Of a DNA stretch of 64,000 nt, positions 21,555-46,040 are shown one piece after another. The stretch comes from Nitrosopumilus cobalaminigenes. Lineage in GTDB: Archaea > Thermoproteota > Nitrososphaeria > Nitrososphaerales > Nitrosopumilaceae. Location: positions 620,001 through 684,000 of the forward strand of contig NZ_CP026993.1 of the NCBI RefSeq assembly GCF_013407145.1, in the 5' to 3' direction. A model generated the notes under the pieces. It had not been told where the DNA came from, did not search any database, and saw nothing but the letters and a program-made list of their open reading frames with translations. Position 1 is the first letter of the stretch; every line of letters begins with the position of its first letter. Position numbers and translations under genes: made by a program.

Positions 21555-21626
21555 TTCTTTGTATTGTCTTGCAATGCACACATGTGTCTTCTCGGCAATT
21601 ATATCTTAAAATCACATAGTAATAGT

Positions 21627-21956
21627 ATGCAAATCTTAAATCAATTAAAAATAGAAGAACCAGAAAGAAAAGAATCTTTTCTAGAAATTCTTTCTGACAA
21701 ATACTGTAGAGCAATATTAGAAGCAATTATGGACACTCCAAAATCTGCAATTGAAGTATCTAGAGAAAAAAACATCCCTCTAAGTACTGTGTATAGAAGA
21801 ATTCAACAATTACATGATTCAAAAATGATTAGAACTTCTGGAGTGATCACTGATGAAGGCAAGAGATTATTTTTGTATAAGAGTAAGATCAAGGCAGTCA
21901 ACACCAGTTTTAGTGATGGCAAAATAGATGTGGATGTAGTTTTTAACAAAAACTAA
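21627..21956 (+). CDS. Winged-helix regulator, family shared with 45420-46040
   Basis: Protein of 109 residues from the ATG at 21627 (the frame extends upstream but without coding character). It holds an ArsR-like winged helix: LEILSDKYCRAILEAIMD, then a helix-turn-helix with NIPLSTVYRRIQQLHDSKMI, and a beta wing. The same order of motifs is found in the C-terminal half of the protein at 45420-46040. It ends 7 nt from the convergent RHH protein gene, whose paralogue adjoins the other copy as well. Confidence 0.7.
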   Translation: MQILNQLKIEEPERKESFLEILSDKYCRAILEAIMDTPKSAIEVSREKNIPLSTVYRRIQQLHDSKMIRTSGVITDEGKRLFLYKSKIKAVNTSFSDGKIDVDVVFNKN

Positions 21957-21963
21957 TCTTCAT

Positions 21964-22548
21964 TTAATATTCATGCTCGCTAAAATCTCCGCCCAATGCT
22001 ATTGTTGCAATGACTGTTGATTCAGTAGTTTGACATTTCATTTTTGAATCTGGCAAGAACTCTTTGAATATTTCTTGTAGTAGTTGTTCTGTAAATATTG
22101 ACCAATTACTTCCTAGTTCATGCTGAATGATAAAGTGGTGGAGTTCTCCTTCTATTCTGTGATCTGACTTCATTCCTGATGCACGCATATAGTCCTCTAA
22201 TGTTTCAATACATCTTTTCAAATCATATTTTCCTTTGATAAACAACACTGTATCTTTAATTACTGGTTTTATCACATTGATAATTTCATTAATTTCATCT
22301 GCAGTCATTTCAATTCCAAGAGTGTCAAGTATTTTTTTAGGAACTGGAATGATGCCTATTTTATCTGCAAATCTGTCCCATTGAACATATTTTTCTAAAA
22401 TCTGTCTTGCCATAACATTGTGTGAGATATTTTTATTCATAGCTTCTGTTTCTATTTCTTCAACAAGTTTAACAGGCAAACGATAGGTTACACTACGTGT
22501 TTTTTCTTTTTTAGGAGGATGCTGCTGGCGTTTTATTGTGGAATCCAA
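21964..22548 (-). CDS. Ribbon-helix-helix protein with conserved IIQHxLGxNW domain
   Basis: Protein of 194 residues. The basic N-terminus with SVTYRLPVKLVEEIETEAMN and ISHNVMARQILEKYV fits a ribbon-helix-helix DNA-binding domain (about 18-55). The remainder is an unrecognised domain carrying IIQHELGSNW (140-149). The paralogue at 44610-45164 has the same layout, with IIQHDLGKNW at 136-145. Both lie beside a winged-helix gene of one family. I infer a transcription regulator with a sensory C-terminal domain; the ligand is unknown. Confidence 0.6.
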   Translation of the reverse strand: MDSTIKRQQHPPKKEKTRSVTYRLPVKLVEEIETEAMNKNISHNVMARQILEKYVQWDRFADKIGIIPVPKKILDTLGIEMTADEINEIINVIKPVIKDTVLFIKGKYDLKRCIETLEDYMRASGMKSDHRIEGELHHFIIQHELGSNWSIFTEQLLQEIFKEFLPDSKMKCQTTESTVIATIALGGDFSEHEY

Positions 22549-22710
22549 TTAACACAACTATCCGAAATAGATTGAATATAAAGTTGATTCAAGAGTGCCT
22601 GAAAATCTGTTCTCAAATTTGATAATCGTATTTCACTATAAAATAAAATAATTCTGTAATGTCTAATGAGGGAATAAATGTGGAAATTTCAACATTAATT
22701 CATTTGAGAC

Positions 22711-22872
22711 ATGGGACAATATTGCAAAAATTGTGAAAAATTTATGAAAAATCCTGATATGACTCATTGTTCTGATGAATGTTTATTGATCTCAATTAAG
22801 GATAGCAATTCACTAGATGAATATGGATATAGTGCAATTACTTGGGATGAAAAATCAGATCCTTGGACATGA
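22711..22872 (+). CDS. Zinc-finger microprotein (53 aa)
   Basis: ORF of 53 codons with CKNC near the start and HCSDEC at 19-24, forming a likely single zinc site, followed by an acidic tail ending SDPWT. It lies in a 370-nt gap before the aminopeptidase gene. The remaining sequence of the gap shows no further gene. Function unknown. Confidence 0.55.
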   Translation: MGQYCKNCEKFMKNPDMTHCSDECLLISIKDSNSLDEYGYSAITWDEKSDPWT

Positions 22873-44609: not shown

Positions 44610-45164
44610 TTAAATCTCCTCAATCTTGGCAATTTCAAAGGAAAATCCTTGTTTATTGTATTCGTCATTCAAAATTCTATACCCGATTTCATTTAGAATT
44701 GAATTCATCTGTCCCACGATAAAAAATGGCCAATTTTTACCTAAATCATGTTGAATGATAATTTTGTTTTTACCATTTACTTCCATCTCTCTATATTGAA
44801 CATTCATACTGAGACATCTTTTTTTGAACAAATCTAAAATTGAATCTAAATCTACATAGCCGTAAAGATAGTTCAATGAATTTTTTAAATCTGATGTACC
44901 TGTGGTTTCTGCAATTTTTTCGATTCTTTCTTTTGAAATTGAGTCTGATAATTCCCTAAATGTTGATCTAAACATTGGAATCCATCCCATCTGAGCAGTT
45001 AACTCATTCCAATTGACTTGCTTTTCTAATAGATGATTGATGAGTGTATTCAAACTAATTTTTTGTTCTATACACTTCTCATGAAGCTTGCCACTGAGAT
45101 CCGAATCAATTCTAATTGATACGTTATCTGTTTTTTTTAACATTTGTTTTTCTTGAGCGGTCAT
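44610..45164 (-). CDS. Ribbon-helix-helix protein with IIQHxLGxNW domain (paralogue of 21964-22548)
   Basis: Protein of 184 residues. N-terminal DNVSIRIDSDLSGKLHEKC and ISLNTLINHLLEKQV form a ribbon-helix-helix; the C-terminal domain carries IIQHDLGKNW at 136-145, as in the paralogue. It is divergent from the winged-helix gene at 45420, with palindromes between them. I infer a DNA-binding regulator. The sensed signal is unknown. Confidence 0.6.
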   Translation of the reverse strand: MTAQEKQMLKKTDNVSIRIDSDLSGKLHEKCIEQKISLNTLINHLLEKQVNWNELTAQMGWIPMFRSTFRELSDSISKERIEKIAETTGTSDLKNSLNYLYGYVDLDSILDLFKKRCLSMNVQYREMEVNGKNKIIIQHDLGKNWPFFIVGQMNSILNEIGYRILNDEYNKQGFSFEIAKIEEI

Positions 45165-45279
45165 TTTTTAACCTCCTTTAAGATCAAGCCTGTTCTTTTC
45201 ATTTACAGTTATCTTATTTCCAAATTTGGTGATATCAGTTAGTATGTTATTTTCGATACATACAGGATTGTACATTTAA

Positions 45280-45332
45280 CTACAATGTAGTAATTTGTGA
45301 TCGATCAGTTATGTAATATTGAATATAGATCG
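45280..45332. promoter_or_regulatory. Palindromes in divergent RHH/winged-helix promoter
   Basis: CTACAATGTAG (45280-45290, odd palindrome) and TGATCGATCA (45298-45307, perfect 10-nt palindrome), with a further GATCG at 45328-45332. They lie midway between the two divergent regulator genes and are good operator candidates for one or both products. Confidence 0.5.
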
Positions 45333-45419
45333 TGATAAATTATTTTTGATATAAAAAGAAATGTTTGTCATAATTGTTTTGACACACTGTTTATTATCTA
45401 ATAATTATCAATCTTGATA

Positions 45420-46040
45420 ATGGAAAACGGTTTAGACAATCTACTTGTACCATCTTTAAGAAAATCTATAGAGGAAAATTTAGGTAAGGAAACGTTACAC
45501 AAAATTGAAGAGAGATTAATGGAAAGACATGGTCTTGGTTTAGTTCAGGCAATTAAAAATTTCAATAAATTTGATAGTGTATTAAGAGAATTCTTTGGTG
45601 CAGGTGCTGATGGTTTAGAACAAAAATTCTTGCAAAAAATTGTTGATGTTGAATCCTCAAAACAATCTACATCTAATTGGATTTCAATAAAAGATCCTGA
45701 ATTGTCAAAAGTTTTCTTGGAATCATTTGCTGATCAAGATAAAAAAGCAATCTTAGGATCTGTAATGGATGAATCATTGATTATTGCTAAAATTTTGGAA
45801 ACTTGTAACATTCCACAAACATCTGGATATAGAAAAATCAACTTTTTGATCAATAATGGACTACTTGTTTCAAATGGATTTGAATTAGCTCATGATGGAA
45901 AGAAAGTTAAAAAATATGAAACCATATTTGATAATGTTAAAGTTGATATTATAAAAAATGATGTTGCAGTTAAAGTACAACTCAAAAAGACTTTGTTAGC
46001 TGAAAGTTCAATTTTACAAACTGTTCAAATTTCTAATTAA
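45420..46040 (+). CDS. Winged-helix regulator (relative of 21627-21956)
   Basis: Protein of 206 residues from the ATG at 45420. The N-terminal half (1-95) is helical and resembles the middle part of thaumarchaeal regulators (ERHGLGLVQAIKNFNKFDSVLREFFG). The C-terminal half has LESFADQDKKAILGSVMD, a helix-turn-helix NIPQTSGYRKINFLINNGLL and a wing, which parallels the 109-residue protein at 21627. A regulatory role is inferred. Confidence 0.6.
   Translation: MENGLDNLLVPSLRKSIEENLGKETLHKIEERLMERHGLGLVQAIKNFNKFDSVLREFFGAGADGLEQKFLQKIVDVESSKQSTSNWISIKDPELSKVFLESFADQDKKAILGSVMDESLIIAKILETCNIPQTSGYRKINFLINNGLLVSNGFELAHDGKKVKKYETIFDNVKVDIIKNDVAVKVQLKKTLLAESSILQTVQISN

Follow-up and report, generated by a model that had tools for sequence, protein, structure and literature searches.

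The window, the whole stretch of DNA analysed here, comprises 64,000 nucleotides and corresponds to bases 620001-684000 of the 1.56-Mb genome of a Nitrosopumilus-type archaeon. It contains two pairs of neighbouring genes, each pair encoding a winged-helix protein and a ribbon-helix-helix (RHH) protein, hereinafter designated copies A and C (Table 1). A sequence-only reading had described the copy-A genes as convergent neighbours 7 nt apart and had proposed that related genes are paired again, divergently, at 44610-46040. The coordinates and strands of the ORFs bear out both statements: the stop codons of the copy-A pair are 7 nt apart, and a 255-nt spacer separates the divergent RHH and winged-helix ORFs of copy C. 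RHH A and RHH C are homologous over 153 residues (25% identity, BLASTP E 2e-14), with the IIQHELGSNW block of one protein aligned to the IIQHDLGKNW block of the other. Winged-helix A and winged-helix C are homologous over ~99 residues (29% identity, BLASTP E 8e-12); the lack of homology between them, which the same reading had named as counting against its proposal, did not occur. Because of these E values for both partners, the two pairs are a true repeat of homologous genes.

Table 1. Genes and promoter elements of the two pairs, in window coordinates
Feature	Position	Strand	Description
Operator TGTCTTGCAATGCA (core TTGCAnTGCA)	21565..21578	+	winged-helix A promoter; 58 nt before start codon; conserved in copy-A orthologues
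TATA box TTATATC of winged-helix A	21599..21605	+	conserved in upstream alignments
Winged-helix copy A (P0001)	21627-21956	+	109 aa; HTH_20/ArsR-like
RHH copy A (P0002)	21964-22548	-	194 aa, TTG start; ribbon-helix-helix plus C-terminal IIQHxLGxNW domain
TATA-like element CTTTATATTC of RHH A	22574..22583	-	conserved in upstream alignments
Palindrome TTATCAAATTTGAGAA upstream of RHH A	22610..22625	-	conserved across copy-A orthologues, including loci without winged-helix A
RHH copy C (P0003)	44610-45164	-	184 aa; homologous to RHH copy A
Block TTAGTATGTTATTTTCgATACATACAggATTGTACA...ACAATGTA in copy-C divergent spacer	45239..45289	.	candidate copy-C operator; spacer alignment of 9 genomes
TGTTTGTCATAATTGTTTTGACA and TATA box TTTATTA upstream of winged-helix C	45362..45396	+	spacer alignment of 9 genomes
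Winged-helix copy C (P0004)	45420-46040	+	206 aa; N-terminal extension of ~80 aa

A third RHH gene, copy B, lies beyond the window (C1:1173112-1173684) and is 65% identical to copy A. It is in tandem with its own winged-helix paralogue, 25 nt apart, and a gene encoding a CBS-domain protein adjoins. At the thresholds used, the RHH family has exactly three genes in the whole genome, and all three adjoin a winged-helix paralogue in three different orientations, namely convergent (A), divergent (C), and tandem (B). The winged-helix family has about ten or eleven paralogues in the genome; two of them form a tandem with overlapping ends at C1:742134-742795 (L011, L013). Between RHH A and an aminopeptidase gene there is a Cys-rich 53-aa ORF (22711-22872, plus strand), which is conserved in most copy-A loci.

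Pairing and co-inheritance across genomes

Of 250 genomes searched in the class, 167 encode the RHH family, with copy numbers reaching 13 or more in a single genome, and some genomes that belong to the phylum but to different classes encode it as well. Among 76 RHH genes in 20 complete or nearly complete genomes, 28 have a winged-helix family gene no more than 1 kb away, while random placement gives a mean of 0.78 and a maximum of 6 over 5000 draws; a few of the 76 matches are fragments, and orthologues among them are non-independent. The remaining 48 have no winged-helix family neighbour inside 1 kb, and in one Nitrososphaera-like genome (G043) none of the seven RHH genes is paired by the same 1-kb criterion. 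Pairing is not obligatory for RHH genes, and because most of them stand alone, the winged-helix protein is dispensable for RHH function. Two RHH copies are split or contain stops and have the look of decaying paralogues (G012:C1:1759806-1760350 and G009:C155:8246-8822).

The paired genes take five or more layouts. They converge in A, diverge in C, and stand in tandem with the winged helix either upstream (B) or downstream; a further layout is the wHTH-CBS-RHH operon. In these operons, the third member encodes a CBS protein with four CBS repeats, and such a CBS-domain gene is often the third member of the locus. Orthologues of RHH C were found in 10 of the 60 Nitrosopumilus genomes searched, our own genome counted, and winged-helix C adjoins RHH C in nine of these ten (8 of 9 when only the other genomes are considered). 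The RHH and winged-helix trees mirror each other, with a distance correlation of r 0.96 over 79 pairs, and the B and C groups are nearly or fully coherent in both. Therefore, the paired genes were duplicated and inherited together. Several Nitrosopumilus genomes have copy-A loci without winged-helix A (L017, L018, L031, L046, L047, L062), in which RHH A and its TFB neighbour are kept.

Domain make-up of the RHH and winged-helix proteins

The AlphaFold2 model of RHH A (pLDDT 86.8) has two helices, residues 26-38 and 43-61, after the ribbon segment. Across 77 diverse homologues, the conserved residues are R23, N44, W57, G65, H143, G146, and S150. Specifically, the ribbon Arg R23 is present in 97% and the helix-capping Asn N44 in 95% of the homologues; by our own alignment, we take both to be the DNA-contacting positions of Arc and CopG. 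Profile matches of the RHH part to the structures of CopG, AvtR, EndoAI, and NikA have E values of 0.004 to 0.3. Pfam matches of the window RHH proteins are all below the curated cut-offs; the best family matches are weak ones to CopG, BrnA, and HicB antitoxins, and the matches to antitoxins do not extend beyond the RHH part. The predicted β-ribbon followed by two helices, with their conserved residues, places the family among the RHH DNA-binding proteins. The ribbon Arg and the Asn helix cap are likewise conserved in the CopG/Arc repressors, whereas the archaeal family adds a C-terminal domain of ~130 aa and a winged-helix gene partner.

The C-terminal domain of RHH A, modelled alone (residues 62-194), gave a confident model with pLDDT 89.9 and pTM 0.82. 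In the model, three helices lead into a β-hairpin whose end is close to H143; the conserved GxxWS then begins a further helix, which is followed by a second hairpin. The motif histidine, H143, is conserved in 97% of the 77 homologues. The best Foldseek matches of the domain are designed proteins. The natural structural neighbours listed are almost all H-NOX, BcsD, and TRAPP proteins, with Z scores of 5.6-7.7 over 110-125 of 133 residues, and DmpR is also among the matches listed in one comparison. The model thus suggests that the domain belongs to the H-NOX/V4R/TRAPP fold class, with Z scores under 8 being too low to establish a common fold with certainty.

MetOD1 has been described as similar to HNOB and V4R (PMC5847659). 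Like MetOD1, V4R, and H-NOX domains, the modelled C-terminal domain consists of helices and two β-hairpins around a helix; it differs from them by having no V4R sequence similarity, no YxSxR motif, and no Cys cluster. Specifically, none of the 20 members scanned has a Pfam match to V4R, comparison with PF02830 by hhalign gave an E value of 0.22 over 24 columns, and neither a conserved cysteine nor a Cys cluster was found in the 77 homologues. An identity as V4R was rejected on these grounds. Heme binding of the H-NOX type was also rejected, because YxSxR is found in 0 of 77 homologues, helix 110-123 is without a conserved His, and H143 is located after the second strand.

NikR is a ligand-responsive repressor composed of an N-terminal RHH and an α/β regulatory domain, namely an ACT domain with His/Cys nickel ligands. 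The archaeal RHH family has the same plan, an RHH followed by an α/β domain. In contrast to the nickel-binding ACT domain, its modelled domain resembles H-NOX, TRAPP, and BcsD, and it has a conserved HxLGxxWS and no conserved Cys; no NikR chain was found among the structural matches listed for either model. The C-terminal α/β domain of the RHH protein probably senses a small molecule.

Winged-helix A matches Pfam HTH_20 with an E value of 1.1e-5 and a score of 25.7, just under the cut-off of 27. HTH_20 is matched by 10 of 16 winged-helix family members (best E 1.7e-7), and the PDB profile matches of the family are archaeal ArsR-family proteins (E 1.5e-5). These profile matches assign the family to the ArsR/HTH_20 winged helices. 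Winged-helix C, its N-terminal extension included, has no Pfam match, and NitrOD5 or another named domain for this extension was rejected on that account. In Thaumarchaeota, ArsR/HTH_20 proteins of arCOG03067 adjoin REC-only response regulators (PMC5847659). Those pairs and the module described here each combine an HTH_20-type winged helix with a separate gene product, a signalling protein there and an RHH protein, often with a CBS protein, here; the two are likened by HTH_20 type and gene context. In our own genome, outside the window, two longer winged-helix paralogues of the copy-C type adjoin REC response-regulator genes (L005:820-2103, L006:1089-2109).

The TTGCAnTGCA operator and its predicted binder

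The A and B winged-helix promoters are otherwise dissimilar and have TGTCTTGCAnTGCA in common, ahead of the TATA box TTATATC. From the position of this box, the winged-helix A transcript is predicted to be nearly leaderless. Of the 66 short winged-helix genes near RHH genes, 57 are preceded by TTGCAnTGCA with no more than one mismatch and 34 by the exact sequence, compared with 4.3% and 0.8%, respectively, of random windows from the same loci. Its distance before the TATA box is fixed, and the operator is mostly at -58 or -48 in these genes. The wHTH-CBS-RHH operons of Nitrosotenuis- and Nitrosarchaeum-like genomes have related sites, often the perfect palindrome TGCATTGCAATGCA.

The short core is not rare, with 2 matches in the window and 1.27 expected, so the argument rests on the fixed position and conservation of the operator and not on its mere presence. 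In our own genome, TGTCTTGCANTGCA is found exactly only at copy A and in a one-mismatch form at copy B; the exact operator-plus-TATA pattern is found at copy A only. A wider TGTCTTGCANTGCA regulon in this genome was rejected: seven sites have at most one mismatch, including those of the A and B promoters, four inside longer ORFs, and one (C1:721971) before a doubtful 47-aa ORF. The literature searched, in which most subscription journals were not covered, holds no description of the RHH family or of the TTGCAnTGCA operator.

The RHH protein is favoured as the binder of TTGCAnTGCA by two sets of sequence comparisons. In Nitrososphaeraceae RHH loci that are CBS-linked and in which no winged-helix family gene was detected, the motif scores 18 strand-hits where 0.79 would be expected; with each palindromic site counted on both strands, this amounts to about a dozen distinct sites. 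Nitrososphaeraceae RHH loci without CBS have 0 strand-hits against 1.22 expected. Moreover, 53 of the 57 paired loci whose RHH protein has a Ser-Thr-Arg ribbon triad contain the site, as do 3 of the 7 with a different triad (Fisher P 0.003, which ignores relatedness).

Conservation of the winged-helix recognition helix is about equal to that of the RHH ribbon, and the operator may therefore be a site for the winged-helix protein instead. To this reading, in which TTGCAnTGCA is bound by the winged-helix protein, acting as repressor of its own gene, while the RHH protein has other targets (e.g. TTATCAAATTTGAGAA at its own promoter) or acts by protein contact, we assign a smaller, still appreciable chance. 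In the A, B, and CBS-linked loci, the operator is part of the promoter of the winged-helix gene itself, which is consistent with autoregulation of this kind, as is the different palindrome at the RHH A promoter, which is kept where winged-helix A is absent and is possibly a second operator. Recognition-helix variants with YRK also tend to have weak sites. The motif enrichment in the CBS-linked Nitrososphaeraceae loci, in which no winged-helix family gene was detected, argues against winged-helix binding; so do several convergent loci, few of them independent cases, in which the site is weak or absent where the ribbon triad departs from Ser-Thr-Arg while the recognition helix is unchanged.

A proposed regulatory module and its wider setting

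On balance, we hold it somewhat probable that the genes are inherited together as a transcriptional module that regulates itself, made up of a ligand-responsive RHH repressor accompanied by winged-helix and CBS co-regulators. In the proposed mechanism, an RHH dimer would bind DNA through its β-ribbon, and in the A, B, and CBS-linked copies this dimer would recognise the palindrome-like TTGCAnTGCA as its operator, immediately before BRE/TATA in the winged-helix promoter. Since the operator is directly upstream of BRE/TATA, RHH binding is proposed to control the access of TFB and TBP, and we expect repression rather than activation. The HTH_20/ArsR-like winged-helix protein would be a second DNA-binding regulator under RHH control, acting with or against the RHH protein, and the CBS protein may add adenylate sensing in many loci. 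Copy C would be an ancient pair running in parallel, with a spacer motif of its own. Established here are the homology and domain make-up of the partners, their association and co-inheritance, and a conserved operator at a constant position; its binding by RHH, the sign of regulation, the ligand, and the targets are predictions.

The sequence-only reading had seen in the two genes a two-component regulatory module with a sensory domain, to be checked by counting winged-helix neighbours of IIQHxLGxNW genes in archaeal genomes and by predicting the structure of the domain. This reading is partly supported: these neighbours are enriched in the 20 genomes (28 of 76), so that the lack of enrichment named as counting against it did not occur, and the partner trees are mirrored. 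A sensory domain, which would bind a ligand, is plausible in view of the confident, H-NOX/TRAPP-like model. However, 'two-component' is too narrow, because a CBS protein is often the third member, some loci have lost the winged helix, and 48 of 76 RHH genes are unpaired.

It is improbable that the genes have no function in common and are neighbours only because a few ancestral arrangements were passed on vertically. Orthologous loci are indeed non-independent, and the A, B, and CBS operons come from one ancestral cluster, but at least five arrangements keep the genes together despite rearrangement, with 28 pairs observed where 0.78 would be expected, and the operator is common to A and B though the rest of their promoters differs. 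A toxin-antitoxin-like pair, with the RHH protein as antitoxin-type autoregulator and its small partner as toxin, is very improbable: the genes are small and adjacent and the best RHH matches include antitoxins, but those matches are sub-threshold and confined to the RHH part, the partner is a winged-helix DNA-binding protein with no nuclease fold and is unlikely to be a type II toxin, and the partners are vertically inherited with mirrored trees, are often convergent, and have CBS as a third member.

Ammonia-oxidising archaea drive nitrification in the sea and in soil, and little is known of their transcriptional control. Returning to the proposed module, we tentatively suggest a broader interpretation: an undescribed class of one-component regulators, RHH plus an H-NOX/V4R-like sensor, expanded in these archaea, which together with the winged-helix protein and the CBS adenylate sensor may act as a multi-input switch through TTGCAnTGCA, possibly tied to nitrogen or energy status. 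The joining of an RHH to a ligand domain is known, for instance from NikR; the literature searched holds no account of an RHH combined with an H-NOX/V4R-like domain and with a winged-helix/CBS partner. With a predicted sensor domain and its motif, a partner, and a short operator at a fixed place, the family is open to experiments on direct binding, ligand, and regulon.

The possible link to nitrogen or energy status comes from the adjacency of RHH and glnK-amt in Nitrosarchaeum-type genomes. In many loci of these and related genomes (L075, L077, L092, L093, L251, L253, L255), an RHH family gene directly follows amt, and the P-II (glnK) gene is upstream of amt. An operator for glnK was rejected, since the site in the glnK-amt-RHH loci reads as the promoter of a divergent gene. 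The motif with a conserved TATA context (TGCAnTGCAATCAAAGGTTTTATTTT or close) also precedes unrelated genes (L077:1467, minus strand; L253:5305, plus strand; L092:249, minus strand; L076:6626; L079:2823), hinting at a wider regulon. One of the genes behind these elements encodes a small protein, secreted or membrane-bound, and another encodes a zinc-ribbon protein.
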